The notes under the pieces are model-generated. The model ran no database searches and was not told the DNA's origin. It saw only the letters and a list, made by a program, of their open reading frames with translations. A DNA stretch of 64,000 nt, from the NCBI RefSeq assembly GCF_025979705.1, contig NZ_CP110136.1, positions 1,860,001 to 1,924,000 of the forward strand, given 5' to 3'. This DNA comes from Hymenobacter sp. YIM 151858-1. GTDB taxonomy: Bacteria; Bacteroidota; Bacteroidia; Cytophagales; Hymenobacteraceae. Positions 1,900 through 19,213 of the stretch are shown in pieces (within the stretch, counting starts at the first letter, position 1; the number at the start of each line of letters is the position of its first letter). The translations under genes were made by a program, and so were the position numbers.

Positions 1900-1963
1900 G
1901 TTTGCTGGTACCGGCGCCCGCACCGGCTTGCTCCCATACGTACAAACACCTAGCCCAACCGGC

Positions 1964-4345
1964 ATGGAATCACGCGCTACCACCTCCGACGATTTAGATT
2001 TACATCAACTTTTCTTCAAGCTGCGGGCCCGCTGGGTGTACTTTCTGCTGGGCCTGCTGCTGGCCGGTGCCGCGGCGTTTTTGTACCTCAAGGTAAAGTC
2101 GCCGGTGTACGATTACCGCGCCACCATGCTGTTGGGCAACCAAAGCACAGGCTCCAAGCAAGCCCAGGAGTTGCTGAATCTGCTGGAGGTGAAGGAGCGC
2201 GGCATTCAGATGGAAGACGAAATCGGGCTGATCAGCTCGGCCGGCATGGTGCGCCAGGCCATCGAGAAGCTGCCCGAGTTTAAAGTAAGCTACTACGCGG
2301 CCCCCAAAAACTGGCTCAACTCGGTGGCCACCCTGCAAGTGCGCGAGCGGCCGGCTGGCTCCTTGCCCTTCCGGGTAGTGCCCGACCTAGGCGCCCCGCA
2401 GCTCACGGGCACCAAAGTGAGCGTGGAGCCGCTGCCCGATGGCCGCTACCGCGTGCAAGCCAAAGTAGACAAAGGCCAACTCGCTGACCTGCAAAGCGGC
2501 TCGTTGGTGCGCGAGGTAATCGACACCGAGCTCGACCACACGCTGCGGGCCGGCGAGCCGCTGCGCCACGCCCTGCTCAACATCACCATCCAGCCCGAGC
2601 CCGGCGCCTCGGCGGTGCCCGGCGAGAAGTACTTCTTCGCCCTGAACGACGTGGGCAGCCTGGTGGGGGCCTACCAAGACCGCCTGAAAGTGCGCACCAT
2701 CGATCAGGAATCGCGCATTATTGAGCTGCGCACCAAGGGCAACGTGCCCATAAAAGAGCAGCAGTTTCTGGATACGCTGATGAGCGTGTTCATCGCTGCT
2801 GACCTGCGCGAGAAAAACCAGACGGGCCAGAAAACGGTGGAGTTCCTGGACAACGAAATTGCCAAGCTGGCCCAGGCCCGCCAGAAATCGGCCGAAGAGC
2901 TGAGCACCTTCCGGGCCGAGCGCGGCGTGGTCGATGTCAACGCTCAGTCGGCCTCGGGTATTCAGCAAACCTCTACCCTCGAAACCGAGCGCACCCGCCT
3001 GGCTTCGCAACGCAGCTTTTACCAGGGCATGCTACGCCAGCTGCGCGACGACCGCGCCATTACGGCCGCCTCGGCCTCGGGCGTGAACGACCCCGTGCTG
3101 AGCAGCCTGATTTTGCAGATGGCCGAGCTTTACAAAGAGCGCTCGGGCCTGGTGGTGAATGCCAGCGCCAACAACCCGCTGGTGGAGGTGCTCGACGAAC
3201 GCATCCGCAACACGCGGGCCTCGCTCGAGCAAAACCTGAGCAGCATGATCCGCTCGACGGATATTCAGCTGGCCGACCTCACGGCCCAGCTAAACAAGGT
3301 GCGCTCCGAAATGAGCCGCATGCCCGAAAACGAGCGGCAGCTGGCCGTGCTGAAGAGCAAGTCGGATTTCAACGACAAGAACTACAGCTTTTTGGTTGAC
3401 AAGCGCGCCGAAGCGGCCATTGAGCTGGCTACCAACACCACCGATAAAAAAATCATCGACCGGGCTGCCATGAACGGCAACGGCCCCTCGGCCCCGCAGC
3501 CGCTGTTTGTGGGCTTTATGGCCCTGCTGGCCGGCCTGCTCGGGCCCCTGGGTATTGTGTTGCTGATGGACAAGGCCAACCGCCGTATTCAAAGCAAGGA
3601 AGACCTGTCGCGCATTACCGACATTCCGATGCTGGGCGTGGTAGCCCACGGCAACAAAGCGGAGCGCAACGAGATGCTGCACAACCCGAAAGGCCCCATT
3701 GCCGAGTCGTTCCGCTCGATTCGGGTGAACCTGCAGTACCTCTCGGCCGGCCTCGATAAAAAAGTGATTGGCGTAACCTCCTCGGTACCCGGCGAAGGCA
3801 AAAGCTTTTGCGCCGTGAACCTGGCCGCCGAGCTGGCCCACTCGGGCCGCCGCGTGGTGCTCGTCGAGACGGACCTGCGCCGCCCCACCGTGGCCAATTA
3901 CTTCAACTACGATCCGCAGGCGCCGGGCCTGGCGGCTTACCTCGCCAACCTAAGCCCGCTGGGTGAGTGCCTGCGCGCCTCCTCGGTGCCCAACCTCGAT
4001 GTGCTGATGTGCGGCGACATTCCGCCGAACCCCATGGAGCTGCTCGAGTCGACGCGCATGACGAGTTTGATGGAGCAGCTGCGCGAGGAGTACGATTACG
4101 TGCTGCTCGATACGCCGCCCGTGGGCTACGTGTCGGAGTACTTCGTGCTGCTGCGCCACCTCGACGCCAACATTTACGTGGTGCGCCAGAACTACACCGA
4201 CCCCTCGTACATCAGCCAGATCAACGAGCTCTACGACCAGGGGAAGATCAAGCATGTCTACATCGTCATCAACGACATGCACTTCAACAAAACGTACGAG
4301 TACCGCTACAAGAAGAAAGCCTATACCTACGGGTATAGCAGTTAG
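1964..4345 (+). CDS. Wzc-like tyrosine autokinase / chain-length regulator
   Basis: This 793-residue inner-membrane polysaccharide co-polymerase is fused to a BY-kinase. A Wzz domain with a membrane helix at about 25-45 is followed by a long periplasmic coiled-coil part and a second helix at about 513-535. The cytoplasmic kinase has Walker A SSVPGEGKS (near 605-613), Walker A' VLVETDLRRP and Walker B YVLLDTPP. The tail is rich in tyrosine (YEYRYKKKAYTYGYSS), the usual autophosphorylation cluster. The reading frame is open from a TTG at 1928, but the ATG at 1964 gives the normal family start. No cognate phosphatase gene (Wzb or PHP type) was seen in the locus. Confidence 0.94.
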   Translation: MESRATTSDDLDLHQLFFKLRARWVYFLLGLLLAGAAAFLYLKVKSPVYDYRATMLLGNQSTGSKQAQELLNLLEVKERGIQMEDEIGLISSAGMVRQAIEKLPEFKVSYYAAPKNWLNSVATLQVRERPAGSLPFRVVPDLGAPQLTGTKVSVEPLPDGRYRVQAKVDKGQLADLQSGSLVREVIDTELDHTLRAGEPLRHALLNITIQPEPGASAVPGEKYFFALNDVGSLVGAYQDRLKVRTIDQESRIIELRTKGNVPIKEQQFLDTLMSVFIAADLREKNQTGQKTVEFLDNEIAKLAQARQKSAEELSTFRAERGVVDVNAQSASGIQQTSTLETERTRLASQRSFYQGMLRQLRDDRAITAASASGVNDPVLSSLILQMAELYKERSGLVVNASANNPLVEVLDERIRNTRASLEQNLSSMIRSTDIQLADLTAQLNKVRSEMSRMPENERQLAVLKSKSDFNDKNYSFLVDKRAEAAIELATNTTDKKIIDRAAMNGNGPSAPQPLFVGFMALLAGLLGPLGIVLLMDKANRRIQSKEDLSRITDIPMLGVVAHGNKAERNEMLHNPKGPIAESFRSIRVNLQYLSAGLDKKVIGVTSSVPGEGKSFCAVNLAAELAHSGRRVVLVETDLRRPTVANYFNYDPQAPGLAAYLANLSPLGECLRASSVPNLDVLMCGDIPPNPMELLESTRMTSLMEQLREEYDYVLLDTPPVGYVSEYFVLLRHLDANIYVVRQNYTDPSYISQINELYDQGKIKHVYIVINDMHFNKTYEYRYKKKAYTYGYSS

Positions 4346-4407
4346 GGAAGGCCACGGCCGGCTGGCCGTGGCTGCTCCTCCGCCTCCACCTTTTTACTGC
4401 TTTCTTT

Positions 4408-6072
4408 ATGGCCTCGTCCGCTGCCCCGGCGCGCAGTTTAACTGCCGCCACGGTTCACGGTGTGAAGTGGACCACCGGCGCCTCCATTACCACTGCGCTG
4501 CTGCAGGTAGGCTACACCGCCGTAATGGCGCGCCTGCTTACGCCGGCCGAGTTTGGCCTGGTGGCCTTGGCCGGCGTCATTCTCCGGTTCGGCAGCTACT
4601 TCGCCCAAATGGGCATGGAGCAGGCCATCATCCAAAAGCCCGACATCACCACCGAGGATGTCCGGGCGGCCTTCACTTCATCGGCCCTGCTGGGGGCGCT
4701 GTTTGCGGCCATTCTGGTGGTGGGTGCGCCCTTGGCCATTACCTTTTTCCACGAGCCCAAAGTAGTGCCGGTGGTGCGGGTGCTGGCCCTGGGTCTGCTG
4801 CTGACGGGCCTGAATGCCACTGCCCTGAGCTTGCTGCGCCGCCAAATGCGCTTTCAGATTTTGGCCATTATCGAGGTAGCCGCTTACTTGCTGAGCTACG
4901 GCGGCATCGGCATCGTAATGGCGTGGGCCGGTTTTGGCGTGTGGGCGCTGGTGGGCGCGCAAGTGGGCCAGCTGCTGCTGCTTACCATTATGGCCTACGC
5001 GGCGGCGCGCCACTCCTTGTTGCTGATTTTCCGGTGGGAGGTGTACCGCCCGCTGGTGGCGTACGGCTCGCGCATGTCGGCCATTAGTTTTCTGGAGTTT
5101 CTTACCGGCTCGCTCGATACTCTGCTCATCGGCCGGTTGCTGAACGCGGCAGCCCTGGGTCTGTACAGCCGCGCCTGGATGCTCATCGGCCTCCCGATTT
5201 ACCTGCTCACGAGCAGCATTGCCAAGGTAATCTTCCCATCGTTCAGCCAGCTGCAGCACGACCGCCCCAAGCTGCGCGAGGTGTACCTGAGCAGCATTAT
5301 GCTGATCGGGGCCGTGGTAATGCCTACCTGCGCCGGCGCGGCCATGGCCGCGCCCGAAATTGTGCTGGTAATGCTGGGCCCGAAATGGCTGGAGGCCGCG
5401 CCCATTTTGCAAATGGTGTGCGTCGCGTTTTCGATGAGCATGGTTACCATGTTTGCCGGCGTGGTGTGCGATGCTACGGCCACGCTTTCGCCCAAGCTTG
5501 TTCTGAACATCGGCTACACGGCCTTGCTGCCCTTGCTGTTTGTGATGATGGCACCCTACGGCCTGGTGGGCGTGGCCTCGGCCGTGGTAATGGGCGAAGT
5601 GGTGCGCACCATCCTGTACATGAGCCTGATGAACCGGGTGCTGGCCGTGACGCCGCTGGCGGTGCTGCGCTCCTACGTGCCCGGCCTCACCATGGCAGCC
5701 GTGGTGACGCTGGTGCTGGGCCTGGTGCTGTACGGCCTGCGCACGGCCGGCGCGCCGTTGCCGGTGCGGTTTGGCATGGCCCTGCTCACGGGGGCCGTAA
5801 CGGCCGGCAGCCTGCTGCTGTTCTGGCCGCCCGAGCCGCTGCGCGCGCTGTTGGCCCGCATCCTGGGCAAGCTTTCGTTGCCTACCTCGGGCTGGGCCGC
5901 GGGGCCTGCCGCCTGGCTAATGCAGCGCCTAGGTGCCACCCCTGCCGCCGCTACCGAGGCACCTGCCGATACCGAGGCTACCGCCCCCGCAACTGCTGAG
6001 CGCCTAGGTGCCCCGGCCCCCGCGCACCGCCGGGCAGCCCTTTCTCCCGACCCTGAAGCTGAATTGGTATGA
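4408..6072 (+). CDS. Oligosaccharide flippase, Wzx-like (MOP superfamily)
   Basis: This 554-residue protein has about 12-14 membrane helices and the layout of the polysaccharide-synthesis flippase family. By family it moves lipid-linked repeat units across the inner membrane. The last roughly 80 residues are a low-complexity Ala/Pro/Thr tail with two CCTAGG sites in its DNA, unusual for a flippase and probably cytoplasmic. A CTCCACC element lies 17-23 bp before the ATG. The stop overlaps the next start by four bases (ATGA), which indicates translational coupling. Confidence 0.9.
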   Translation: MASSAAPARSLTAATVHGVKWTTGASITTALLQVGYTAVMARLLTPAEFGLVALAGVILRFGSYFAQMGMEQAIIQKPDITTEDVRAAFTSSALLGALFAAILVVGAPLAITFFHEPKVVPVVRVLALGLLLTGLNATALSLLRRQMRFQILAIIEVAAYLLSYGGIGIVMAWAGFGVWALVGAQVGQLLLLTIMAYAAARHSLLLIFRWEVYRPLVAYGSRMSAISFLEFLTGSLDTLLIGRLLNAAALGLYSRAWMLIGLPIYLLTSSIAKVIFPSFSQLQHDRPKLREVYLSSIMLIGAVVMPTCAGAAMAAPEIVLVMLGPKWLEAAPILQMVCVAFSMSMVTMFAGVVCDATATLSPKLVLNIGYTALLPLLFVMMAPYGLVGVASAVVMGEVVRTILYMSLMNRVLAVTPLAVLRSYVPGLTMAAVVTLVLGLVLYGLRTAGAPLPVRFGMALLTGAVTAGSLLLFWPPEPLRALLARILGKLSLPTSGWAAGPAAWLMQRLGATPAAATEAPADTEATAPATAERLGAPAPAHRRAALSPDPEAELV

Positions 6073-7193
6073 GAACCAGAGTTCTATTCGACCATCAGAT
6101 CTTCACCATCCAGAATTACGGCGGCGTGTCGCGGTACTTCTGGGAGCTGATGCGCAACGCCGGGCCCAAGCTGCAGTGCGAGCTGCCGGTGGTGTTCAGC
6201 AACAACCTGTACCTGCGCGACGGGCAACACACCCGCCACCGCACGTTTTTCCCGAACACGAACCTCCCGGGCGGCTGGCGCATCATTAAGGCCTGCAACG
6301 ACTGGGCCGCGCGCAAAGCCCTGCAGCGGGCCGCGTTTGATGTGTTTCACCCCACGCTGTTCGACGACGACTACTTCCTGGAACGGATGCCGGCGGGCAA
6401 GCCCTTCGTCATCACCATCCACGACATGATTCCGTACCTGTATCCGGAGTATTACCCCGATCGGGAACTGAGTCATCTGAAGCGCGTGGCCGACCGCGCC
6501 AGCCGCATCATCACGGTTTCAGAAAACACCCGGGCCGATGCCATGCGTTTGCTGGGCCTGCCCGCCGAGCGCGTGGTGGTGATACCGCACGGCACCACCA
6601 CCACCGAGGCCACCGGCCCCAGGCCGGCGGTGCCGGGGCGCTACGTGCTGTACACCGGCACGCGCGGCATGTACAAAAACTTAGGCTGCTTTCTGGAAGC
6701 GGCCAGCCTGCTGCACCGCCAACACCCCGACCTGTATTTCGTATGCGCAGGCGGCGGGCCGTTCAGCTTGCCCGAGCAGGAGCAGTTGCGCACCTTGCAC
6801 CTCACCGACCGGGTACTGCAGCTGGGCCCGCTTACCGACGCCGAGCTGGCCTACCTCTACCGCGACGCGGCGGCTTTCGTGTTTCCCTCGCACTACGAAG
6901 GCTTTGGCCTGCCCATTCTGGAGGCCTTTGCCCACGGCTGCCCGGTGGTGCTGAGCGCGGCCTCGTGCTTTCCGGAGGTTGCCCAGGAGGCGGCGCTTTA
7001 CTTCCGGCCCGATGCCCCGCAGCAGCTTGCCGAACAGCTGGCGCAGGTGCTTACCGATAAAGCCTTGCGGCGGCGCCTCAGCGAAGCCGGCCAGTTGCGC
7101 AGCCAGGACTTTACCTGGGCCCGCACCACGGCCCTGACGCGCCAGCTCTACCGCGACGCTGTAACCGAGCCGCTGGTGCTCGAACTCACCTAA
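6069..7193 (+). CDS. GT4-type glycosyltransferase
   Basis: This 374-residue retaining GT-B glycosyltransferase probably adds one sugar of the repeat unit. The N-terminal domain has the glycine-rich NYGGVSRY acceptor-side loop. The C-terminal domain has the EX7E nucleotide-sugar motif in HYEGFGLPILEAFAHG (near residues 277-285). It is a soluble, probably membrane-associated enzyme. It overlaps the flippase stop by 4 bp and is followed by the polymerase gene after 27 bp, so it belongs to the same operon. The sugar donor cannot be told from sequence. Confidence 0.9.
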   Translation: MRTRVLFDHQIFTIQNYGGVSRYFWELMRNAGPKLQCELPVVFSNNLYLRDGQHTRHRTFFPNTNLPGGWRIIKACNDWAARKALQRAAFDVFHPTLFDDDYFLERMPAGKPFVITIHDMIPYLYPEYYPDRELSHLKRVADRASRIITVSENTRADAMRLLGLPAERVVVIPHGTTTTEATGPRPAVPGRYVLYTGTRGMYKNLGCFLEAASLLHRQHPDLYFVCAGGGPFSLPEQEQLRTLHLTDRVLQLGPLTDAELAYLYRDAAAFVFPSHYEGFGLPILEAFAHGCPVVLSAASCFPEVAQEAALYFRPDAPQQLAEQLAQVLTDKALRRRLSEAGQLRSQDFTWARTTALTRQLYRDAVTEPLVLELT

Positions 7194-7220
7194 CCAACAC
7201 CTTTTCACCGCTTACCCGCC

Positions 7221-8525
7221 ATGATCATCAGCCTGCGGTTCCGCTTTCTGATTGTACTGCTGGTTGTGCTGCTCACCGACCGCGCCTTTACGGCATTTGC
7301 GTTCGAGGATGCCGACGACCCGGTGCTTTGGATGTGCATGCAGCTGCTTACGGCCGGCATGATCGGGCTGAGCGCGCTGTACCTGCGCTACTTCAGCCGC
7401 CCGATGCGCACGTGGTATTTCGTGATGCTGGCGTGCCTGGCCGCCTTGGCCCTGGAGTCGCGCATCGGCTGGGATACCTGGATGGTGTACCCGCACGTGT
7501 TCAACAAGCTGCTGGTGATTATGCCGCTGTTTGCGGTGTACGGGTTTTACCGCCGCTACGGCATGCCGCCCCTAGGTCTGCTGATGGCCTTTTTGCTGGT
7601 GGGGCTGGCGGCCAGCCTGGTTATCAACTTCCCGGAGGCGCTTAGCCTGGCTTCGTTTGTCGATAACGAACGCGGCTTCAACGTGGAGTCGACGTACCTG
7701 CTGCTGCTGCTGGCGTTGTACTACTTCAACCAGTACATGGCCAAGGGCGGGCTGCCCAGGTTGCTGGTGTTTTTTGTGGCCCTGGGCATGATTGTGTTCC
7801 TGCAGCACCGCACGGTGTGGCTTTGCACCGTGCTGGCCCTCACGCTCAACGTGCTGATGCTGCGCCGCACGGTGGGCGTTACGCTTTCCTTCCAGCGCTT
7901 TACGCCGCTGTTTGTGCTGCCCATTGTGGTGGCCCTAGGTGGCGGCATTGGCGTGGTGCTGAACAACCCCGAGGTGCTGGCCCGCCTCGAAACCAGCATC
8001 GAGGACATCCAGAACCCCGACAAGCAAGGCACCGGCAGCTGGCGCCTGCAGCAGTTCCGCTCGTACGAGCCCTTTATTCTGGAGCACCCCGTGGCCGGCA
8101 TGCGCCTGAAGGGGTTTGAGCTGCCCATTCAGTTTTACTCCACCGAATCGAAGCTGAAAGTGTGGAAAGACGGCACCGGCCACCACTTTCACAGCTGGTA
8201 CGTCGACCGCCTGTTTTACTTCGGCGTTATCGGGGTGCTGCTGGTGCTGGTGGTGCCCGTTAAGCTGATTATCCGAAGGCTGCGCAGCCCCGAGCCGCTC
8301 GATGCCAACTCGGCCGCCTTTCTGGCCTTTCTGGGCAGCAGCCTGCTCTACAGCTTCTCCTACGACTGGCCGTATTACATGTACTCCGTTTACGGGTTTG
8401 CGCTGGCCATTATGGACCCCTTGCCCGCAGCCGCGCCAGTTAGTTACCAGCCTCGGATGCCGCGCCGTACGCGCCGCCCCGAGGAAGCCATTTCCTCCAC
8501 CGCCGTAGCTCATGCAGATGCCTGA
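7221..8525 (+). CDS. O-antigen polymerase/ligase-like membrane protein (Wzy candidate)
   Basis: This 434-residue protein has about 11 hydrophobic helices and a large periplasmic loop (about 250-320) containing SWRLQQFRSYEPFILEHP and a GHHFHSWYVD stretch. That layout is typical of the O-antigen ligase/polymerase (Wzy_C) superfamily. As the only such protein in a locus that also has Wza-, Wzc- and Wzx-like proteins, it is the best candidate for the repeat-unit polymerase. Wzy proteins diverge strongly, so the call rests on topology, the loop pattern and context. The 3' end overlaps the next gene by 14 bp. Confidence 0.8.
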   Translation: MIISLRFRFLIVLLVVLLTDRAFTAFAFEDADDPVLWMCMQLLTAGMIGLSALYLRYFSRPMRTWYFVMLACLAALALESRIGWDTWMVYPHVFNKLLVIMPLFAVYGFYRRYGMPPLGLLMAFLLVGLAASLVINFPEALSLASFVDNERGFNVESTYLLLLLALYYFNQYMAKGGLPRLLVFFVALGMIVFLQHRTVWLCTVLALTLNVLMLRRTVGVTLSFQRFTPLFVLPIVVALGGGIGVVLNNPEVLARLETSIEDIQNPDKQGTGSWRLQQFRSYEPFILEHPVAGMRLKGFELPIQFYSTESKLKVWKDGTGHHFHSWYVDRLFYFGVIGVLLVLVVPVKLIIRRLRSPEPLDANSAAFLAFLGSSLLYSFSYDWPYYMYSVYGFALAIMDPLPAAAPVSYQPRMPRRTRRPEEAISSTAVAHADA

Positions 8526-9555
8526 AAACTACTCCCCCAGCGCGGGCTTTGAGACGCCGGTGCTGCTCCTCATTTTTAACCGCCCCGATACCACGCGCCG
8601 CGTGCTGGAGGCCATTCGGCAGGTGCGGCCCACGCGCCTGTACGTGGCCGCCGATGGCCCGCGCCCGCACCGCCCCGCCGACGAGGCCCTGTGCGCCGAA
8701 ACCCGCGCCCTGGTGCACGAGCTGGTAGACTGGCCCTGCGCGGTGCAAACCCTGTTTCGGGCCAGCAACCTCAACTGCGGCGTGGCGCCGGCTACGGCCA
8801 TCGACTGGTTTTTTCAGCACGAAGAGGAGGGCATTATCCTGGAAGACGACTGCGTGCCGGCCCGCTCCTTTTTCCCTTTCTGCGCCGAGCTGCTGGCCCG
8901 CTACCGCCACGATACCCGCGTGATGCACATCGGCGGCAACAACTTTGCTGCGGAAGCCGCCGAGGTACCCCGACCGGGCACCGAGTCGTACCACTTCTCC
9001 AACCAAGTGAACAGTTGGGGCTGGGCCACGTGGCGCCGCGCCTGGCAGCACTTCGATTTTCGGATGCAGCGCCTGCCCGAGCTGGAGGCACAGGGCAAGC
9101 TGAAAGGCATTTACAGCTCGTGGCTGGAGGAGCGCTACCGCCTCAGCAAAATCCGCAGCGTGCTCAGCCTGCCGCAGCCGCCCGATGTGTGGGACTACCA
9201 GTGGCACTTTGCCATTGCGGCCAACTCGGGCCTGTGCATTGTGCCGGCCGTGAACTTGGTGGGCAACATTGGTTTTGGCGCCCAGGGCACGCACACCATG
9301 GATGCTGCCGACAGCCAGGCCGATGTGCCCACCCTGGAGCTGCCGTTTCCGCTGCACCACCCGCACCACGTACTCATCGACCGGCCGCGCGACCGGCGGC
9401 GTTTCCAGGAGTTCCTGCAAAGCCGCATCCGGGCCAAGCTGTCCCGTTTGTTTCCGCGCCGCGCCGCCGCGTCGCATGCCGCTCCCACTCCCGCTCCTGC
9501 TTCCGTCTTGGCTCCACCCGATGCCGAGCTTCTTTCACCGGCTCCCCAAGCTTAG
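8512..9555 (+). CDS. GT-A fold glycosyltransferase-like protein (HlpA-like)
   Basis: This 347-residue protein resembles the nucleotide-diphospho-sugar transferases often labelled hemolytic protein HlpA-like. It starts with a GT-A strand pattern (VLLLIFNRPDTTRRVLEAI) and has a metal-binding acidic cluster in GIILEDDCVP (near residues 104-113). A SNQVNSWGWATWRRAW signature follows. The last roughly 35 residues are Ala/Pro-rich and probably disordered. It overlaps the polymerase gene and is 4 bp from the next glycosyltransferase, so it is in the operon. Substrate unknown. Confidence 0.82.
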   Translation: MQMPENYSPSAGFETPVLLLIFNRPDTTRRVLEAIRQVRPTRLYVAADGPRPHRPADEALCAETRALVHELVDWPCAVQTLFRASNLNCGVAPATAIDWFFQHEEEGIILEDDCVPARSFFPFCAELLARYRHDTRVMHIGGNNFAAEAAEVPRPGTESYHFSNQVNSWGWATWRRAWQHFDFRMQRLPELEAQGKLKGIYSSWLEERYRLSKIRSVLSLPQPPDVWDYQWHFAIAANSGLCIVPAVNLVGNIGFGAQGTHTMDAADSQADVPTLELPFPLHHPHHVLIDRPRDRRRFQEFLQSRIRAKLSRLFPRRAAASHAAPTPAPASVLAPPDAELLSPAPQA

Positions 9556-9559
9556 TCCC

Positions 9560-10903
9560 ATGAAAATCCTGCTCTCAGCCTACGGATGCCAGCCAAACTC
9601 GGGTGGCGAAGACAGCCACGGCTTCAATACCCTTTGGGAAACCGCCGCGCTGGGCCATCAGGTGTGGTGCTTTACCACGCCCCTAGGCAAAAACGGCTCC
9701 ATCGAAAAATACCTGCACGAGCACGCCGACAACCCCATTGCCCAGCGCATACGGGTGGTGAACGTGCACGTGCCCAAGGTTGTGGACTACCTGTACCGCT
9801 GGCAGTTTGGCGTGTACGTGCACTACATCTACTGGCAATACCGCGCCTGGCGCAAGGCGCAGGAGCTGGATAAGCAGGTTGAGTTCGACCTGGTGTACCA
9901 CATCACCTACAACAGCCTGCAAATGGCCTCCTGGATGTGGCGCCTGGGCAAGCCGCTGCTCCTGGGGCCGCTGGGTGGCGGCATGCAGGCGCCGGCCTCG
10001 CTGCGCCGCTACCTGCCCGATTGGTTTAAAACCGAAACGATGCGCAACCTCATCAGCAAGCTGCTCATCACCTTCGACCCCAACGTGCGGCAATCGTTGC
10101 GCCACGCCAAGCTGGTGCTGGCCGCCAACCGCGAAACCGCCGAGCTGGCCCGCCGCCTAGGTGCCAAACGCGTGGAGCTGGCCATGAGCACCGGGCAGTT
10201 TCCGGCGTTTTACCCGGCCGAGTACCCCGTGCGGCCGCAACGCACCAACGGCGAGCTGCGCATTTTGTGGCTGGCCCGTTTGTTTCCGCGCAAAGGCCTG
10301 CATTTGGTTATCGAAGCTTTGGGCAAGGTGAATCCGCGCGTCAAGTTTCACCTCGACATTCTGGGCGACGGGCCCGTGGGCCCGCTGCTGCCGGGCTGGA
10401 TTGCCGCGGCCGGCATCGAGGACAAGGTAACCTGGCACGGGGCCGTGCCCTTTAGTGCCGTGCGGCAGGCTTACCTCGAGCACGACCTGTTTATGCTCTG
10501 CAGCCTGCGCGACACCTTCGCCTCGCAGTACCTCGAGTCGATGGCCCTGGGCCTGCCCATTCTCACCCTCGACCACCACGGCGCCACCGATTTCATTCCG
10601 GACTATGCGGGCATTAAGGTGCCCGTAACCACCCCCGAGGCCACCGCCGAAGCCCTGGCCCGCCAGGTGGAGTACCTCTACGACCACCCCACCGAGCTGG
10701 AGCGCATGGGCCGGGCCAGTTACGCCTATGCCTGCCAGCACACCTGGCCCAAACTGGTGGCGCACCACCTAGGGCGCCTGGCCGCCCTGGAGCCCGCCTT
10801 TGCCGAGCTGGCCGAGCCGGTACCGGTTCGGCCAACGCAGCCAGCTGCCGAGCCCGCCACGCCGGCCCCTGCCCTCGAATACTCCGGTGCTGCCCTAGGG
10901 TAG
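9560..10903 (+). CDS. GT4-type glycosyltransferase
   Basis: This 447-residue GT-B glycosyltransferase starts with MKILLSAYGCQPNSGGEDSH, the phosphate-loop region of family GT4. A glycine-rich PLGGGMQAP segment lies mid-protein. The donor-site half contains LWLARLFPRKGL, GDGPVGPLLP and an ESMALGLP segment at the place of the EX7E motif. The frame stays open upstream inside the previous gene, but the ATG at 9560, 4 bp after the previous stop, fits the family start. The C-terminus is an Ala/Pro-rich tail. Confidence 0.88.
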   Translation: MKILLSAYGCQPNSGGEDSHGFNTLWETAALGHQVWCFTTPLGKNGSIEKYLHEHADNPIAQRIRVVNVHVPKVVDYLYRWQFGVYVHYIYWQYRAWRKAQELDKQVEFDLVYHITYNSLQMASWMWRLGKPLLLGPLGGGMQAPASLRRYLPDWFKTETMRNLISKLLITFDPNVRQSLRHAKLVLAANRETAELARRLGAKRVELAMSTGQFPAFYPAEYPVRPQRTNGELRILWLARLFPRKGLHLVIEALGKVNPRVKFHLDILGDGPVGPLLPGWIAAAGIEDKVTWHGAVPFSAVRQAYLEHDLFMLCSLRDTFASQYLESMALGLPILTLDHHGATDFIPDYAGIKVPVTTPEATAEALARQVEYLYDHPTELERMGRASYAYACQHTWPKLVAHHLGRLAALEPAFAELAEPVPVRPTQPAAEPATPAPALEYSGAALG

Positions 10904-10960: not shown

Positions 10961-11800
10961 ATGTTGTACATCGTCATTCCGGTATTCAACCGCCTGGCCT
11001 ATACCCGCGCCTGCCTGCAGTCGTTGCGGCAGCAAACCTCCACCCGTTTCCGCACCATCGTGGTCGACGACGGCTCGACCGACGGCACCAGCGAAGTGCT
11101 GGCGCGCGAGTTTCCGGAGGTGGAGGTGCTGCACGGCGACGGCAACCTGTTCTGGACGGCCGGCGTGAACATGGGCATCCGCCGCGCCCTGGAGCACGGC
11201 GCCGACCGCGTAATGACGCTCAACAACGACGTAATCTGCGACGCGGCCTTTGTGGAGCGCATGCTGCAGTGGGCCCAAAAGCACCCCGACGCGCTCCTGG
11301 GTGCGTTGGAGCTCGATGCCTCCACCACCCAGCCCATTTACGGCGGCGAGGTGTTCAGCTGGCTTACGCACCGCCGCAGCGACTTGCTGGAGGTGCTGAA
11401 ACCCGAACAGCGCCGCGGCCTGCACCCCGTAACCTACCTGCCCGGCCGGGGGCTGCTTATTCCGGCCCAGGTGTTTGCCAGCATCGGCTTGTTCGATGAG
11501 AAGCGCCTGCCCCACTACCTGGCCGATTACGACTTTACGAGCGTGGCGCGCCGCCACGGCTTTCCGGTCTACATCAACTACGATGCGCACCTGCTTACCT
11601 ACCCCGAGGAAAGCGGGCAGGAAATTACCCGCAAGCAAAAAAGCCTGCGCGGCTACTACGAGCACCTGTTCGGCATCCGGGGCGGCGGCAACCTGCGCAA
11701 CTTCACCCACTTCGCCCTGAAAAACTGCCCCACGCCGCTGGTGCCGCTGTTTTTGGTTAATGGCTATGCCCGCCGGCTGGTGGGCTATTTCCTGCACTAA
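10961..11800 (+). CDS. GT2 family glycosyltransferase
   Basis: This 279-residue inverting GT-A glycosyltransferase resembles rhamnosyltransferase-type GT2 proteins. The donor-binding motif VVDDGSTDGT lies near residues 35-44. LNNDV (near 88-92) occupies the DXD position. A LPGRGLLIPAQVF segment is typical of this subgroup. No membrane helix is obvious. The leader has two CCACC elements (10925 and 10938) followed by a pyrimidine run before the ATG, like most genes in the locus. It ends the contiguous run of rightward transferases. Confidence 0.88.
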   Translation: MLYIVIPVFNRLAYTRACLQSLRQQTSTRFRTIVVDDGSTDGTSEVLAREFPEVEVLHGDGNLFWTAGVNMGIRRALEHGADRVMTLNNDVICDAAFVERMLQWAQKHPDALLGALELDASTTQPIYGGEVFSWLTHRRSDLLEVLKPEQRRGLHPVTYLPGRGLLIPAQVFASIGLFDEKRLPHYLADYDFTSVARRHGFPVYINYDAHLLTYPEESGQEITRKQKSLRGYYEHLFGIRGGGNLRNFTHFALKNCPTPLVPLFLVNGYARRLVGYFLH

Positions 11801-11945: not shown

Positions 11946-13148
11946 ATGCTGCCTTTTCGTCTGATTTGCTGGTCTTTGTTTGGCTCGTGCCTGGCTGTGC
12001 CCGCCTCCGAGAAGGCCGGAGTGCCCGGCGCCGAAACGCTGGTTATCAAACGCGGCGGCACTTACACGGGCACGTTCCGCAGCACCAGCCCCGATAAGCC
12101 GTGCGTCCGCATCGATACCGACGAGCCCGTGGTGCTGCGCCAATGCCGGCTCGAAGGCCCCGGCCTGCTGATTGATGCCCGCAACGGCGGCGCCCGCCTG
12201 ACGGTGCAGAACTGCATAGGCGTGGCCCTGGCCCCCACCAACGACGATGAAGCCCCGGGCCGGTTTCTGGAAATTAACGACGCCACCTCGCTTGCGGTAA
12301 CCAACTGCGAGCTGCGCCAAACCAGCGGCATTGTGGTGTACAAATGGCAGGGCAACGGCTCGGCTGGCCAAACCTTGCGGATTCTTCGCAACAAGGTGTA
12401 CAACATAACCGGGCGCTACCGCAACGGCGGCGGCCGCAAGGCGCATTTTGTGTTGCTGAATCAGGTGCTTCGGGTGCCCAACGTCGAAATTGCCTGGAAC
12501 CAGGTCATCAACGAGCCCGATCAGTCGATGGTCGAAGACAACATCAACATCCACAACTCCTCGGGCACGCCCACGAGCCCGATCCGCATCCACAACAACT
12601 TTATCCGGGGCGCCTACCCCGTGCCCGCCACCGCCGATACCTTTACCGGCAGTGGCATCACCACCGACGGCGACGGCAGCTCGCCGCTTACCTGCACGGC
12701 CTACGTCGAGGCCTTTCAGAACCAGGTGGTATCTACCTGCAACGCGGCCATGAACATTGCCGCCGGGCACCACGTGCGCTATTACCGCAACCGCATGGTA
12801 AGCAGCAGCCAGTTGCCCGATGGCCGCGCGCTTAGGGCTACGTATGCGGCCACCTCCGTTTACAACGCCTACAACAAACCGCGCAGCGTGTTCTTTGCCA
12901 ACAAGGTCGATAACAACATCATCGGGTTTGCCAAGCGCGGCTACAACGTGCCGTTTGCCAACCGCCACGACCTGAGCACCGGCCATTGCCCCACTTGCTT
13001 TGCCAACACGCACTTACCCAACCCGATAACCCTCGCCACAGAAAATCGGGAGTGGCAGATTTGGTTGGATAAGCTAAGCCGCTCGGGCACCAAGGTCGGG
13101 CCCCAGACCACCGCCAAACCCCCGGCATTGCGCCCCGAACTAGGCTGA
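11946..13148 (+). CDS. Secreted right-handed beta-helix protein (short paralog)
   Basis: This 400-residue protein has a probable signal peptide (about 1-20) followed by a right-handed parallel beta-helix, seen as repeated N-x-I/V turns such as LRILRNKVYNI and VEIAWNQVINEP. It is paralogous over its whole length to the N-terminal half of the next gene, sharing TTDGDGSS, STCNAAMNIA-GH, NVPFANRHDLSTG, a C-x2-C pair and HLPNPIT. No catalytic family could be named; polysaccharide lyases and glycan-binding proteins share the fold. Its place inside the EPS locus suggests work on, or attachment to, the exported polymer. It lacks the lectin-like modules of its paralog and a T9SS tail. Confidence 0.8.
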   Translation: MLPFRLICWSLFGSCLAVPASEKAGVPGAETLVIKRGGTYTGTFRSTSPDKPCVRIDTDEPVVLRQCRLEGPGLLIDARNGGARLTVQNCIGVALAPTNDDEAPGRFLEINDATSLAVTNCELRQTSGIVVYKWQGNGSAGQTLRILRNKVYNITGRYRNGGGRKAHFVLLNQVLRVPNVEIAWNQVINEPDQSMVEDNINIHNSSGTPTSPIRIHNNFIRGAYPVPATADTFTGSGITTDGDGSSPLTCTAYVEAFQNQVVSTCNAAMNIAAGHHVRYYRNRMVSSSQLPDGRALRATYAATSVYNAYNKPRSVFFANKVDNNIIGFAKRGYNVPFANRHDLSTGHCPTCFANTHLPNPITLATENREWQIWLDKLSRSGTKVGPQTTAKPPALRPELG

Positions 13149-13331
13149 TTTTTAAGGTTTTTCAACTTTTTTTCGGCAGCACTCCCTTTCGGAGTGCTTT
13201 TTTTATGGCCGAGCTTACTTAGAATCGGTCTATCAAAATCTGCGCCTCTTGGGCCATACTCGCTATATCGGTACGGCCAACGCCCCACTGCGCATCTAAA
13301 TAGTGCAATTCAACTTTATTTTCGACCGCCC
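13149..13331. terminator. Terminator of the transferase/beta-helix operon, with flanks
   Basis: An 8-bp perfect stem, AGCACTCC at 13178-13185 and GGAGTGCT at 13191-13198, has a 5-nt loop and a T-run to 13204. This is a classic rho-independent terminator 30 bp after the short beta-helix gene. The remaining AT-rich DNA to 13331 shows no gene. Confidence 0.8.
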
Positions 13332-13360
13332 TTGGTGTTTACAAAACTTTTATACATTTG
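13332..13360 (+). promoter_or_regulatory. Bacteroidota-type promoter for the large beta-helix gene
   Basis: A perfect -7 element TACATTTG lies at 13353-13360, with TTGG at 13332-13335 in the -33 position about 18 bp upstream. The start of transcription should fall near 13366, giving a leader of roughly 430 nt before the ATG at 13794. Confidence 0.5.
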
Positions 13361-13793
13361 CAGTGAACACCGGCACCAGCAATTGCACTTTTAACAGGTA
13401 ATAGCTGAGTTGAAGACCTGATTAAACGGCGTACACCGTGCATCAGCAGGATTGTACAGCGGGTATTCGGGCGATGGAGGAAGTAGGTGATAAGTGGTTG
13501 CCTGCTAAGTACGGAGAGTAGTGAAGTTGGGTTAAAAGCTTTAATTAAAGCTTACTTAGCTTGGTAACGACACAAAGCAAACAAGGCGAAGCCTCTGGGC
13601 CCGGAAGCAATAACCTGGTTTGCATTGCGGTCAAAATGGATTTTCTGGTTGAATTCTTTCCTCGTGCGAGGATAATGAATCCGGAAACCGCCAATTGCAC
13701 ATTAAAGATCTGGCGCTCGGAACGAATTGTGACCGACCCAGGTTGAAACCGCAACAATTCCTGCAAAGGACCTTTTTTTCTAACAAAAACAGA
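13361..13793 (+). promoter_or_regulatory. Long 5' leader with palindromes
   Basis: This gene-free stretch precedes the large beta-helix gene. It holds an 18-bp perfect palindrome AAGCTTTAATTAAAGCTT at 13536-13553 and AATTGCAC at 13381-13388 and 13693-13700. A GAATTGT/ACAATTC stem lies at 13724-13760, and a small AAAGG-a-CCTTT hairpin running into a T-run lies at 13765-13778, just before the start codon. A 15-codon ORF begins at 13474. None matches a riboswitch class I recognise; regulatory function is inferred from length and structure. Confidence 0.4.
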
Positions 13794-16700
13794 ATGCAAA
13801 AAACCTCTGGATTCCGGCCGCGGTTTGACCGTGAAAACTCTGGTGCACGCTTTCTGCCCTCAGTGGTGCTCGTGCTGTCGATGATTGGCCTGCAGCCTAG
13901 CGAATCGCTAGCGCAGGGCCAAGCCCCTAATGTGACGTATTCGGCACCCCTCGTAATTACGCAAGGTGGTACCTACTCTGGTAACTTCAAGAGCACGGAC
14001 TCCAACACGCCGTGTATCCGAATCCAGACTACCCAACCGGTTACTATCGAGAACTGTATCCTGGCAGGCGCTGGCGACCTGATTGACGCGAAGAACGGCG
14101 GTAGCACGCTGATCATCCGCAACAACAAAGGTTACGGCCTGAATCAGAGTGTGGATAACCGCCGCCACGGCCGTTTCGTGGAGGTAAACTCGGGTCGTTC
14201 GGTATTGGTTGAAAACAACTATTTCGAACACACCTCAGGTGTTGCAGCTTACCAGTGGAGCGGCGACGGTTCGCCTTCGCAAACCCTCACGGTGCGCCGC
14301 AACGTGGCCAAGAACATCGACGGCCGCTTCCGCAACGGCGGTGGCGAGTACGTGCAGTTTCTGGGCCTGAACCAGGTGCGCAACGTGGGCAACATCGAAG
14401 TTGCCTGGAACCAGGTGATCAACGAGCCCAACAACTCGCTGGTAGAAGACAACATCAACTTCTACAACTCGGGTGGTGTGTCGGGCAGCCCGGCGCGCGT
14501 GCACGACAACTACGTGCAGGGTGCGTACCCCATCCCGGCTACGGCCAGCAAGTTCACGGGCACCGGCATGACCACCGACGGCGACGGTTCGTCGGCCTCG
14601 ACTACGGCTGCCTTCATCGATGCCTACAACAACCAGTTCATCTCGACGTGTAACGCGGCGATGAACATTGCCTCGGGCCACGATGTACGCTTCCATCACA
14701 ACCGCATGGTAACGGCCGGCTACCTGCCCGACGGTACCAAGCTGCCCTCGGCCTGGGCTGCTACGGCTATCTTCAACGCCTACCAGCAACCGAGCAACGT
14801 ATTCTATAATAACCAGACGGACAACAACACCATCGGTTATTACCGCGAAGGCTACAACGTACCGTTCGCCAACCGCCACGACCTGAGCACCGGTGCCTGC
14901 AACAACTGCACGAGCACCAACCACCTGCCCAACCCGATTACGGTTGACACGGAGAAAAACGAGTGGACGCTGTGGCAGCAGAAGCTGCAGCAGAACAGCA
15001 TCACCCTAGGTGTGGGTGGTTCGGGCACCGGCACTTCGCCTACCCCGACTACTCCTACCTCGCCCGCTCCTGCACCAACTCCGGCTCCGGCCCCCACTGA
15101 GGGCGGCGGCAACACGGGCAGCACGCCCATGGCCGGCCCCGTAGGCGCTGCTTTCTACCGCGGCATCGATATCAACGGCACGGCCGTAACCCTCGACGGC
15201 AACAAGTGGGAAGCTGCTACGGGCGCTGCCAACTTCCAGGTAACGGGTACCAACTTCAGCAACCCTTCGGTTACGCTTTCGCCCAACACCGAGCCTGAGC
15301 GCGCCACCATGCTGCGCACCGCTGTAGGCGGGAGCACCGTAGGCGCTACCCTGACGAGCGTGCCCGCTGGCACCTACTCGGTGTACGCCTACATCTGGGA
15401 AGACAACGCGCCGGAAACCACCGACATCGTACTGAACGGCCAGACCGTGAAGTCGGGCCTGAGCACCGGCTCGGCTGGCAACTGGCAGCGCGTGGGTCCT
15501 TTTAAGGTTGAGGTGAGCAACGGCAGCATTGCCCTGAGCACCACCGGCGGCCACCCCAACCTTTCGGGCATCGAGGTCTGGAAGCACACGGCAGTAGCCA
15601 ACCAGGCTCCTACGGTTACCCTCTCGGCCTTGGCCAGCCTTACCCTAGGTCAGCCGCTGGCCCTGTCGGCAACGGCAGCCGATGCCGATGGCACCGTGGC
15701 TAAGGTTGAGTTCTTCAACGGCACCACCAAGCTGGGCGAAGACACCTCGGCTCCTTACACCCTGAGCTTTACGCCGGCTGCTGCCGGCACGCTGAGCCTG
15801 ACGGCCCGCGCCACTGACAACGCTGGCGCCACCACCAACTCGGCTGCCGTATCGGTATCGGTACAGGCCGCTCCCACCACGGGCAGCACGCCCATGGCCG
15901 GCCCGGCTGATGCTACCTTCTTCCGAGGCATCGACATCAACGGCACGGCCGTAACCCTCGACGGCAACAAGTGGGAAGCTTCGGCTGGCGCTGCTAACCT
16001 GCAGGTAACGGGCATGAACTTCTCGAACACGGCTACGGCGCTGAGCCCGGCTACCGACGCTACCCGCGCTGGCATGCTGCAAACGGCCGTAGGCGGCAGC
16101 ACCGTGGGCGCTACCCTGACGAGCGTGCCCGCCGGCTCTTACTCGGTGTACGCCTACATCTGGGAGGATAACAACGCCGAAACCACCAACATTGTGCTGA
16201 ACGGCCAAACGGTGAAATCGGGCCACAACACCGGCGGTGCTGGCCAGTGGCAGCGCGTGGGCCCCTTCAAGGTTGAGGTGAGCAACGGCACCATCGCCCT
16301 GAGCACTTCGGGCGGCCACCCCAACCTCTCGGGTGTTGAGGTGTGGAAGCACAACACCACCACGGCTCCGGCTGCAACCCGCACGCTGTTCCGCGCCATC
16401 AACCTGAACGGCCCGGCCCAAACCATCGACGGCATCAGCTACGAGGACGGCACCACGTTCAAGGACATCACCACCAACGGTGGCAAGCTCTCGACGCAAT
16501 CGGTAACGCTTAACCCCGCTACCGACGCCGCCCGCGCCCAGATGATCCGCTCGTTTGTATGGAGCAACAACCTGCGCCTGACGGTGAACAACGTACCGAA
16601 CGGCACCTACGAGGTATCGTACTACGTGTTCGAAGATAACTATGCCCAAACCTACAGCACCACGCTGAATGGCCTGCCCTCGCTGACGAACCACAACAGC

Positions 16701-16829
16701 GGTGCCCCCGGCACCTGGCGCAAAACTGCTCCGCAGAAGGTTACCGTTACCAACGGCATCATTGAGCTGCGTAGCACCGGCGGCGCCATCAACGTATCGG
16801 GCATGGAAATCTACCGCATCACGCAGTAA
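13794..16829 (+). CDS. Large secreted beta-helix protein with lectin-like and Ig-like modules
   Basis: This 1011-residue protein has a signal peptide (about 1-42, hydrophobic core FLPSVVLVLSMIGL, cleavage near LAQ). A right-handed beta-helix (about 45-405) follows that is paralogous to the preceding gene, then a Pro/Thr/Ala-rich linker (about 405-440). Three malectin-like jelly-roll modules lie at about 442-600, 697-857 and 861-1011, with a bacterial Ig-like domain (about 603-693) between the first two. Modules 1 and 2 are nearly identical in DNA over long stretches. The frame is open from TTG 13695, but ATG 13794 puts the signal peptide at the terminus. No T9SS tail is visible. Codons favour GGT and GCT more than neighbours, hinting at strong expression. 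A surface EPS-binding or EPS-modifying role is inferred. Confidence 0.82.
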   Translation: MQKTSGFRPRFDRENSGARFLPSVVLVLSMIGLQPSESLAQGQAPNVTYSAPLVITQGGTYSGNFKSTDSNTPCIRIQTTQPVTIENCILAGAGDLIDAKNGGSTLIIRNNKGYGLNQSVDNRRHGRFVEVNSGRSVLVENNYFEHTSGVAAYQWSGDGSPSQTLTVRRNVAKNIDGRFRNGGGEYVQFLGLNQVRNVGNIEVAWNQVINEPNNSLVEDNINFYNSGGVSGSPARVHDNYVQGAYPIPATASKFTGTGMTTDGDGSSASTTAAFIDAYNNQFISTCNAAMNIASGHDVRFHHNRMVTAGYLPDGTKLPSAWAATAIFNAYQQPSNVFYNNQTDNNTIGYYREGYNVPFANRHDLSTGACNNCTSTNHLPNPITVDTEKNEWTLWQQKLQQNSITLGVGGSGTGTSPTPTTPTSPAPAPTPAPAPTEGGGNTGSTPMAGPVGAAFYRGIDINGTAVTLDGNKWEAATGAANFQVTGTNFSNPSVTLSPNTEPERATMLRTAVGGSTVGATLTSVPAGTYSVYAYIWEDNAPETTDIVLNGQTVKSGLSTGSAGNWQRVGPFKVEVSNGSIALSTTGGHPNLSGIEVWKHTAVANQAPTVTLSALASLTLGQPLALSATAADADGTVAKVEFFNGTTKLGEDTSAPYTLSFTPAAAGTLSLTARATDNAGATTNSAAVSVSVQAAPTTGSTPMAGPADATFFRGIDINGTAVTLDGNKWEASAGAANLQVTGMNFSNTATALSPATDATRAGMLQTAVGGSTVGATLTSVPAGSYSVYAYIWEDNNAETTNIVLNGQTVKSGHNTGGAGQWQRVGPFKVEVSNGTIALSTSGGHPNLSGVEVWKHNTTTAPAATRTLFRAINLNGPAQTIDGISYEDGTTFKDITTNGGKLSTQSVTLNPATDAARAQMIRSFVWSNNLRLTVNNVPNGTYEVSYYVFEDNYAQTYSTTLNGLPSLTNHNSGAPGTWRKTAPQKVTVTNGIIELRSTGGAINVSGMEIYRITQ
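15117..16362 (+). repeat. Duplicated lectin-like module in DNA
   Basis: Two copies of a roughly 480-bp coding module (15117-15594 and 15882-16362) flank the Ig-like segment. Stretches such as 15163-15213 and 15928-15978 differ at about one base in 51. A third, diverged copy follows at 16375-16826. The high identity points to recent duplication or gene conversion. Confidence 0.75.
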
Positions 16830-17091: not shown

Positions 17092-18207
17092 ATGAAGCGT
17101 GCCCTCATTACCGGCATTACGGGCCAGGACGGCTCGTACCTGGCCGAGCTGCTGCTCAGCAAAGGCTACGAAGTTCACGGCATCAAGCGCCGCTCCTCCC
17201 TCTTTAACACCGAACGTATTGACCACCTCTACCAAGACCCCCACGAGCAGGACATCCGCTTTAAGCTGCACTACGGCGATTTGTCGGACTCGACGAACCT
17301 GATCCGGATTGTGCAGGAGGTGCAACCCGACGAGATTTACAACCTGGGCGCCATGTCGCACGTGAAGGTGTCCTTCGACACGCCCGAGTACACGGCCGAC
17401 GTGGACGGGGTGGGCACCTTGCGTTTGCTGGAGGCCATCCGCATCCTGGGCCTGACGGACAAGACGCGCATTTACCAGGCCAGCACCTCGGAGCTTTACG
17501 GCCTGGTGCAGGAGGTGCCCCAGCGCGAGACCACGCCCTTCTACCCCCGCTCGCCTTACGCCGTGGCCAAGCTCTACGCCTACTGGATTACGGTGAACTA
17601 CCGCGAGGCCTACGGCATGTACGCCTGCAACGGCATCCTCTTCAACCACGAGTCGCCCTTGCGCGGTGAAACGTTCGTGACGCGCAAGATTACCCGCGCG
17701 GCGGCCCGCATTGCCCTAGGTCTGCAGGACAAACTGTACCTGGGCAACCTCGACGCCAAGCGCGACTGGGGCCACGCCAAGGACTACGTAGAGGCCATGT
17801 GGCGCATTTTGCAGCAGGATCAGCCCGAAGACTTCGTTATCGCCACCGGCGTGACCACCACCGTGCGCGACTTCGTGCGCCTGGCTTTCCGCGAGGTGGG
17901 CATCGAGCTGACGTTCTTTGGCGAAGGCGCCGAGGAAACCGGCCACGTGGTGGCGTGCCACAACCCCGAGTTTCAGCTGCCCCTAGGTAAGGAGGTCGTG
18001 GCCGTCGACCCGGAGTACTTCCGCCCCACCGAGGTAGAACTGCTCATCGGCGATCCTACGAAAGCACAGGAAAAGCTGGGCTGGAAACCGCAGTACGACC
18101 TGCCCGCCTTGGTGCAGGACATGATGCACGCCGACTTGGAGCTGTTCCGCCGCGACGCCACCTTGCGCGAGGCCGGCCACAAGGTGCTGAACTACTACGA
18201 ATCGTAG
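17092..18207 (+). CDS. gmd: GDP-mannose 4,6-dehydratase
   Basis: This 371-residue extended SDR enzyme converts GDP-D-mannose to GDP-4-keto-6-deoxy-D-mannose, the first step to GDP-L-fucose. The NAD(P)-binding motif [10 protein letters not shown] is at 7-16. The catalytic STSELYG (131-137) and Y156-x3-K160 are intact, as are the family signatures [11 protein letters not shown] and [16 protein letters not shown]. Length and start match the family. It is followed 34 bp later by fcl, which uses its product. Both are cytoplasmic and supply the transferases of the locus. Confidence 0.97.
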
Positions 18208-18241
18208 GCCTGCGCCTGAGTTGCTTTCCACCTCTCCACTT

Positions 18242-19213
18242 ATGGAAAAGAACGCCAAGATTTACGTTGCCGGGCACCGCGGAATGGCGGGCTCGGCAAT
18301 TGTGCGCCGTTTGCAACAAGCCGGCTACAACAACCTCGTGCTGCGTAGCTCTAAAGAGCTCGACCTGCGCAACCAACCCGCAGTGGCTGCTTTCTTCGCC
18401 GAAGAAAAACCCGAGTACGTGGTGCTGGCCGCTGCCAAAGTGGGCGGTATTGTGGCCAACAACACCTACCGCGCCGATTTTCTGTACGACAACCTCATGA
18501 TTGAGGCCAACGTGCTGGAGCAGGCGCGGGTGCACGGCGTCCAGAAGCTCTTGTACCTGGGCTCGTCGTGCATCTACCCCAAGATGGCCCCGCAGCCCAT
18601 TAAGGAAGAATACCTGCTGACCGGGCCGCTGGAGCAAACCAACGAGCCCTACGCCATTGCCAAAATTGCGGGCCTGAAGCTCTGCGAAGCCTATTACGAC
18701 CAGCACGGCTGCCGCTTTATCACGGTGATGCCTACGAACCTGTACGGCCCCGGCGACAACTACCACCCCGAACACTCGCACGTGATGGCGGCGCTGCTGC
18801 GCAAAATCGGTGAGGCGGCTGCCCTGGGTTTGCCGCAGGTAGAGGTGTGGGGCACCGGCAAGCCGTACCGCGAATTTTTGCACGTGGATGACCTCGCCGA
18901 TGCCTGCCTGCACCTGCTGCTGCACTACGACGGCCGCGAGCCCATCAACGTGGGCACCGGCGAAGACCTGACGATCCGTGAGCTGGCCGAAACCATTGCC
19001 GAGCTGACGGGCTTCCGGGGCGAGCTGGTGTTCAACACCTCGCGGCCCGATGGCACCCCGCGCAAGCAGCTCGATGTAAGCCGCCTGCACGCGCTGGGCT
19101 GGCGCCACCGCATTGAGCTGCGCGATGGCATCCGGCAGGTGCTCGACGCCGCCGAGTGGCAAGCCCATGCCTCCGAAGCGGCCAGGCACACGTTGCAGGC
19201 GTTGGCCACCTAG
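18242..19213 (+). CDS. fcl: GDP-L-fucose synthase
   Basis: This 323-residue SDR epimerase/reductase turns GDP-4-keto-6-deoxymannose into GDP-L-fucose. The N-terminal glycine motif [10 protein letters not shown] (10-19), the catalytic SSCIYP (108-113) and Y137-x3-K141 are present, with the family sequence [21 protein letters not shown]. The ATG at 18242 is preferred to an upstream in-frame start at 18221 because it gives the standard [14 protein letters not shown] terminus and follows a CTTTCCACC leader element. The TAG stop lies inside a CCTAGG site. Confidence 0.97.

Follow-up and report, generated by a model that had tools for sequence, protein, structure and literature searches.

A conserved pair of beta-helix proteins bound to a Wzx/Wzy-type exopolysaccharide locus, and its candidate role in depolymerisation

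Two adjacent genes in a Wzx/Wzy-type exopolysaccharide (EPS) locus encode paralogous right-handed beta-helix proteins, one bare and one modular, and this pair is real, conserved, and bound to its locus. Probably, though by no means certainly, the pair is a dedicated EPS-depolymerising slot of the locus, most likely of the lyase type, in which the helix domain would cleave the polymer.

The window, i.e., the whole stretch of 64,000 nucleotides that was analyzed, corresponds to bases 1860001-1924000 of contig C1 in a source genome of 4.62 Mb, and all window features located below lie on its forward (+) strand. Pfam domains identified genes for Wza-like export, Wzc-like, Wzx, GT4, Wzy, GTx, and GT4 proteins at 1120..10903, followed by GT2a, a GT2 glycosyltransferase gene (10961..11800; PF00535, 79.7 bits) directly upstream of the helix pair. 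Copy 1 (P0001) occupies 11946..13148 and copy 2 (P0002) 13794..16829. Then come gmd and fcl (17092..19213), which encode a GDP-mannose dehydratase and an epimerase-type protein for GDP-fucose synthesis, and further downstream are GT61 and GT2 genes, also by Pfam. The helix genes are thus surrounded by Wza, Wzc, Wzx, Wzy, and transferase genes, where the names Wza, Wzc, Wzx, Wzy, gmd, and fcl are our reading of the Pfam domains. GTx (window 8512-9555), a putative transferase, had no Pfam match at E 0.05; despite this, a relative of it was found in all 82 of the EPS-core stretches described below. Among the named relatives compared, Solirubrum puertoriconensis (L035) was closest; against it, copy 1 stands at 80% and the copy 2 helix at 98%.

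Copy 1 is a bare right-handed beta-helix protein of 400 amino acids with no added module, whereas copy 2, as judged from its open reading frame, Pfam, and repeat comparison, is a long protein of 1011 amino acids counted from ATG 13794. Both begin with an N-terminal signal-like stretch (judged by eye). In copy 2 this is followed by a beta-helix domain (13914..15011), delimited by alignment to copy 1 and 53% identical to it over 361 residues (E 2.1e-134, far above chance), a Pro/Thr linker, a malectin-like module 1 (15150..15587), a Big_7 Ig-like domain (~15612..15806; PF17957 50.3 bits, cut-off 24.1), module 2 (15915..16352), and module 3 (16383..16820). The modules were delimited by repeat comparison, in which modules 1 and 2 are 82% identical; module 2 was the one modelled, and module 3 lies at the protein end where many relatives carry a T9SS tail. 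The earlier note had described two adjacent paralogous beta-helix genes, one bare and one with three lectin-like modules and one Ig-like domain, and this layout was borne out: both open reading frames are present, and the four motifs said to be shared occur in both proteins in the same order (residues 239/263/339/356 of P0001 and 260/284/360/377 of P0002 counted from ATG 13794). A third, distant helix paralogue (31%) lies away from the EPS locus in the source genome (G000:C1:1113171-1114217, L058).

The mechanical open reading frame of copy 2 begins at TTG 13695, and its true start is probably ATG 13794, because three relatives align there from MQK/MQN. Between the two genes, a terminator-like hairpin follows copy 1 (13178..13198), a kind of site that is weak alone (6 sites found versus 8.0 expected by shuffling). 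A promoter-like core, TTTATACATTTGC (13349..13361), is invariant in five of five aligned upstream regions; measured against what we take to be the Bacteroidota promoter consensus, it is the probable promoter of copy 2 and would give a leader of ~430 bases. This leader holds further conserved blocks, and Rfam returned sub-threshold matches only, with no family at cut-off, on bases 13140-13900. Over the whole window, CCTAGGT occurs 70 times on both strands versus 4.3 expected from shuffles, and is possibly a genome-wide signal or repeat motif.

An AlphaFold2 model of copy 1 (pLDDT 78.6, pTM 0.84) consists of a right-handed beta-helix and a C-terminal alpha helix at residues 363-380, and has the pectin-lyase-like fold, with VIA Z up to 26.6. 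The model scored Z 23.6-26.6 against many pectin-lyase-like proteins, including tailspike, PL6 lyases, NosD, rhamnogalacturonan lyase, AlgE, AlgG, PfbA, RbmB, and phi29 gp12. Scores of 23.9-25.5 were obtained for PL6 lyases, AlgE, AlgG, rhamnogalacturonan lyase, and RbmB, and non-enzymes scored equally (NosD 25.0, the PfbA adhesin 24.3, phi29 gp12 23.6). Foldseek TM-scores for the helix were low (TMq 0.16-0.42 among the 50 matches listed). Because the VIA scores to many proteins lie so close together, the modelled fold identifies the superfamily, not the reaction. Structure prediction, proposed by the earlier note as a check, therefore delivered a beta-helix with PL6-like neighbours by VIA, but these were tied with non-enzymes and no reaction was singled out. 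At the sequence level, the note's failure to match either protein to a named lyase or hydrolase family was repeated with Pfam, NCBIfam, and PDB sequences. No PL or GH family of Pfam or NCBIfam matched copy 1 or the helix of copy 2 at E 1, a sequence comparison of the helix profile with PDB chains gave no match at E 1, and the helix matched no named family in NCBIfam, Pfam, PDB sequences, or PHROGs. Nor could any catalytic motif known from PL or GH families be recognised in it. Neither window protein was listed for PF13229 Beta_helix (cut-off 25.9 bits) at E 1; among the 31 members of the helix alignment, 7 matched it at E 0.1, the best with 1.5e-5.

The model of module 2 (pLDDT 88.5) has a malectin-like fold, with VIA Z 16.3 to the C-terminal domain of the Bacteroides beta-glucuronidase 6d8g (140/146 residues) and 13.6 to human malectin (139/146 residues). 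CBM35 had been ranked first by Foldseek and was rejected as the best name for the modules, since VIA places malectin-type domains well above CBM35 2w1w (Z ~9.8). The module is thus similar in fold to malectin-type (CBM57-like) domains. The window modules differ from them in sequence, as none of the three matched Malectin PF11721 (cut-off 23 bits) at E 10, and the best malectin Pfam score among relatives, 16.7 bits in L036, is also under the cut-off. Within the source genome the module matched three times at E 0.001, each time inside copy 2.

Across the GTDB family, the helix profile matched 120 of 204 genomes at 1e-10, in three of six genera, and GT2a matched 122 of the 204 at 1e-50. At these cut-offs, and with genomes of shared ancestry counted separately, 119 genomes had both, 1 had the helix only, 3 had GT2a only, and 81 had neither. 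The helix matches of 6 of the 119 co-occurring genomes were weak only; in these six, the protein encoded after GT2a is a divergent helix protein. Four of 395 genomes drawn from the phylum matched the helix profile, all four within this GTDB family. Gene order was examined in 99 stretches, namely L038 and 98 that we picked among the matches listed; they do not include the pair of the window itself, and G128 was omitted for its match at a contig end. These stretches hold 175 helix open reading frames, with pairs counted as found and rows related by descent, and 158 of them lie in 82 stretches that contain wzx, wzy, GTx, or GT2a (a wzy-like gene in 80 of the 82). The other 17 frames come from stretches that lack EPS core genes; two of them, in L048 and L148, have further EPS genes as neighbours all the same. 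In 75 of the 99 stretches, a helix frame lies 3′ of GT2a in the same orientation, its open frame starting within 1.9 kb (at a distance of more than 1 kb in 12 stretches). The overlap filter masked GT2a in a further 7, where the GT2a profile matches place it next to the helix; the remaining 17 stretches contain no EPS core genes. Twenty extra stretches were chosen around GT2a and stand outside the counts over 99 or 74. A profile search for co-occurrence with Wzx/Wzy loci had been suggested as a further check, and by this search the homologues are mostly found in EPS stretches rather than away from them. From the position of the pair between transferase and sugar-nucleotide genes, the earlier note had derived a role in EPS. 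The EPS link itself is strongly supported (119 of 120 helix genomes with GT2a), but the emphasis on sugar-nucleotide genes is weaker, as gmd lies within the fetched stretch for just 34 of 75 GT2a loci.

The stretch L038 carries a helix relative (36%; 765-5901) on a 7.9 kb contig of a Candidatus Aminicenantes MAG, near a GmrSD_N restriction-type gene. It was the only match outside the GTDB family among the matches listed, where one of the searches finds close relatives only, and is likely due to transfer or mis-binning. In L131 (9551-10432) and L137 (7129-8010), a GT11-type, fucosyltransferase-like gene sits between the two helix genes, scoring above the Pfam cut-off in L137 and just below it in L131.

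The two copies differ in architecture. Over 74 paired loci, neither a T9SS tail nor a malectin-like module was found in any first copy (0/74 each), whereas the second copies carried a T9SS tail in 39 cases and a malectin-like module in 37, both in 7, and neither in 5, three of which are cut at contig ends (L051, L098, L153). The module is accordingly missing from 37 of the 74 second copies. Tails were counted with a profile built here, with which Pfam agreed in L037, L053, L090, L108, L115, and L131; the orthologue of Hymenobacter metallicola (L037), for instance, ends in a T9SS tail with 46.5 bits for PF18962 (cut-off 27) and 30.3 for TIGR04183 (cut-off 23). In the window, Pfam and NCBIfam listed no tail for either copy at E 1, though the source genome has 62 PF18962 matches at E 0.001. 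The claim that the proteins lack a T9SS tail thus holds for both window proteins and fails for their family. PA14 and Big_7 domains were present in two Pfam-scanned second copies of genus g3 (L053, L131); a home-made word pattern for PA14 had found 3 open reading frames only and was replaced by Pfam.

Further information on the slot came from the three genomes with GT2a only. In two of them, G213 and G225 (L163 and L164), GT2a is followed by an unrelated but likewise paralogous short/long pair, with open frames of 514/1017 and 518/754 residues and short versus long copies 72% and 61% identical; in L164 a GT4-like gene sits between GT2a and the pair. Both long copies end in PF18962 T9SS tails. 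One short copy matched PF05426 Alginate_lyase (30.8 bits, cut-off 22.2), and Alginate_lyase was not listed for the other three proteins at E 0.1. This alginate-lyase-like family occurs in 3 of 204 genomes at 1e-20, i.e., those of L163 and L164 and G166. In the remaining GT2a-only genome, GT2a is distant (45%) and the stretch around it showed no pair of this kind. The long copy of L164 has the same malectin-like module (166 bits), and that of L163 has PA14 and no malectin-like module. Two modules per protein (171-199 bits) were found in the divergent beta-helix proteins that follow GT2a in the six genomes with weak helix matches, and the two scanned by Pfam match PF13229 with 74.1 and 46.0 bits. 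Since the module is found in the helix family, in the divergent helix proteins, and in the L164 long copy, one module type is common to three kinds of core in one slot.

We considered, and rejected, the possibility that copies 1 and 2 represent two old clades going back to an ancient duplication: a tree of 174 rows, from which the short third copy L144 was omitted, mixes the copies, and a single copy 1 clade was rejected with p-AU 4e-213. The clade test left out lone and far copies, L050, L057, two three-copy loci, and 34 of 72 two-copy loci; over the resulting 76 rows of 38 loci of our choice, the copy label changes at least 14 times on the tree. Copies of one genome are sisters on the tree in L041, L049, L107, L116 (support 85), L131, L134, and L149, and across 74 loci the partners of a pair share a median identity of 60.7%. 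In L131 (G223:C33), the two helix genes have an identical tract of 1085 bases that extends roughly from where the signal region stops to the end of the helix domain; its 60-base flanks are just 23-25% alike, confining the identity to the helix domains. This tract points to gene conversion, with assembly error as a possible caveat. As read from these sequences, the helix domains of partner copies appear to have been repeatedly homogenised, with repeated duplication as the alternative for pairs other than L131.

The two copies also differ in their conserved charged residues. At 13 such positions, departures from the family residue made up 8.7% of cells in copy 1 versus 1.0% in copy 2, whereas at 49 uncharged positions matched for conservation range they made up 7.0% and 6.5%, respectively (site counts omitted L038, L058, L059, and L060 in addition to L144). 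When copy 1 was compared with its partner at 11 charged positions, it was lower in 31 pairs, higher in 4, and equal in 39. Copy 1 of the window retains 8 of the 11 family-conserved charged residues, with T119, L147, and T155 in place of E, R, and D, while copy 2 retains all 11. We counted by eye about seven separate losses of charged residues in copy 1. Judged by these alignments, conservation of the charged residues is looser in the bare copy.

Enzymes of the pectin-lyase-like superfamily bind sugar on the PB1/T3 face of the helix. Going by strand order in the model, the family residues D155, R157, E197, D198, D241, R340, and D342 (P0001 numbering) would lie on this face. This placement, taken with the replacement by a lyase-like pair, makes it most likely that the helix is an EPS-cleaving domain, which would bind and cleave the polymer made by its own locus through these charged residues. 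The long copy would act on the cell surface or within the matrix, where its modules would hold the polymer for trimming, release, or remodelling. The bare copy would be periplasmic or soluble and, like AlgL, would clear or trim stray polymer; these two compartments are suggested by the signals in the sequences. The bare copy may, in several lineages, be turning into a weaker or non-catalytic twin, and gene conversion may keep the helices matched because both copies meet the same polymer. Processing, anchoring, and matrix roles had been left side by side in the earlier note. Our analysis favours processing over anchoring or a matrix role as the task of the helix domain, because two genomes have the slot filled by an alginate-lyase-like pair that shares the short/long layout; in the long copy, the added modules favour a surface or matrix location. 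An extended version, which we put forward tentatively as possible rather than probable, is a "matched twin" depolymerase, in which a modular, surface-held active enzyme is accompanied by a bare twin with a decaying active site and a polymer-binding helix matched by gene conversion; the twin would serve as a competitor, chaperone, or sensor for the polymer that the enzyme acts on, and the slot could be filled by different catalytic folds, sometimes with the same polymer-binding module.

Several observations weigh against an EPS-cleaving pair. No PL or GH catalytic motif is assignable, the fold is equally shared by non-enzymes, and the Foldseek TM-scores are low; the replacement rests on two genomes, with an Alginate_lyase match for one of four proteins at E 0.1; the L163 long copy has PA14 instead of the malectin-like module, which is absent from half of the second copies; the bare copy of the window lacks three conserved charged residues; and 17 of 175 frames lie outside EPS core stretches. 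As a rival, both proteins could be non-enzymatic, a lectin or matrix scaffold anchoring EPS to the cell, for which the malectin-like and PA14 modules, the T9SS tails, the equal fold score of the beta-helix adhesin PfbA, and the sharing of the module by different cores in the slot all speak. We nevertheless consider such a scaffold unlikely, since charged residues are kept in 99% of long-copy cells, more than uncharged sites of like conservation, and alginate-lyase-like substitutes occupy the same slot; it would regain ground if these proteins were also inactive.

The helix could also be an enzyme that modifies the polymer rather than cutting it, e.g., a C5-epimerase like AlgG or AlgE acting on the nascent chain. 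AlgG is encoded in an EPS operon, and AlgG and AlgE (VIA Z 24.3 and 24.6) are tied with the lyases. Yet the slot replacement is alginate-lyase-like, not epimerase-like, and the long copies bear T9SS tails and modules of a sugar-binding type, features that would be odd in a nascent-chain enzyme; we regard this reading as quite doubtful. Degradation of a foreign polysaccharide, with the position in EPS loci arising by chance, would account for the relatives away from EPS core genes, of which those in L048 and L148 are still near EPS genes; against the near-perfect co-inheritance with GT2a over 204 genomes and the constant gene order, it appears highly improbable. The EPS-depolymerising slot is the explanation that we favour.

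The need of an EPS cluster for an enzyme attacking its own product is called elusive in the literature (PMC9075953). The approximately 120 genomes found here provide a natural series of matched pairs, single copies, and relaxed twins, with two further genomes that carry an unrelated replacement, all in one fixed slot, so that the role of a self-attacking EPS enzyme becomes testable by comparing the variants. The helix proteins are, moreover, candidate polymer-specific depolymerases for an uncharacterised EPS. Among the open-licence PMC papers listed, we found no account of this pair or of beta-helix proteins in EPS clusters of Hymenobacter or Bacteroidetes. WcaM is a beta-helix protein of colanic acid, and no paper on it in this capacity was found in the same literature.

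Lyases and epimerases of EPS loci are a known kind; what is new is the family, its pairing with homogenised helices, and the exchangeable slot. PL6 alginate lyases (Pedsa0632, BcAlyPL6, and Patl3640) are the best enzymatic fold neighbours (Z 24.0-25.5); the resemblance is one of fold only, as copy 1 has no match to PL6 or another lyase family at E 1. AlgL and AlgG are, like the pair, EPS-operon enzymes, and AlgG shares the beta-helix (Z 24.3), while the alginate lyase class of AlgL resembles the replacing pair by Pfam (one of four proteins). As far as is known, however, each is a lone enzyme of its own kind, and the two do not form a matched pair in which one member is a modular surface copy. 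We know of no partner copy, modules, or T9SS tail for RbmB. Like the helix pair, it is secreted, folds as a beta-helix, and is linked to the EPS of its own organism (VIA Z 23.9, rmsd 3.2, 275 aligned, tied with many beta-helix proteins); it differs in sequence, as the helix profile matched no PDB chain at E 1. RbmB is a biofilm-matrix polysaccharide lyase of Vibrio cholerae that cleaves VPS, with a lyase mechanism strongly suggested (PMC11637428), and AlgL is an EPS-operon lyase clearing periplasmic polymer (PMC8829089); the two show that roles of the proposed kind exist. Compared with the glycosyl hydrolases and lyases of EPS clusters in general, the core described here is exchangeable within a fixed slot and is mostly duplicated as a bare and a modular copy.
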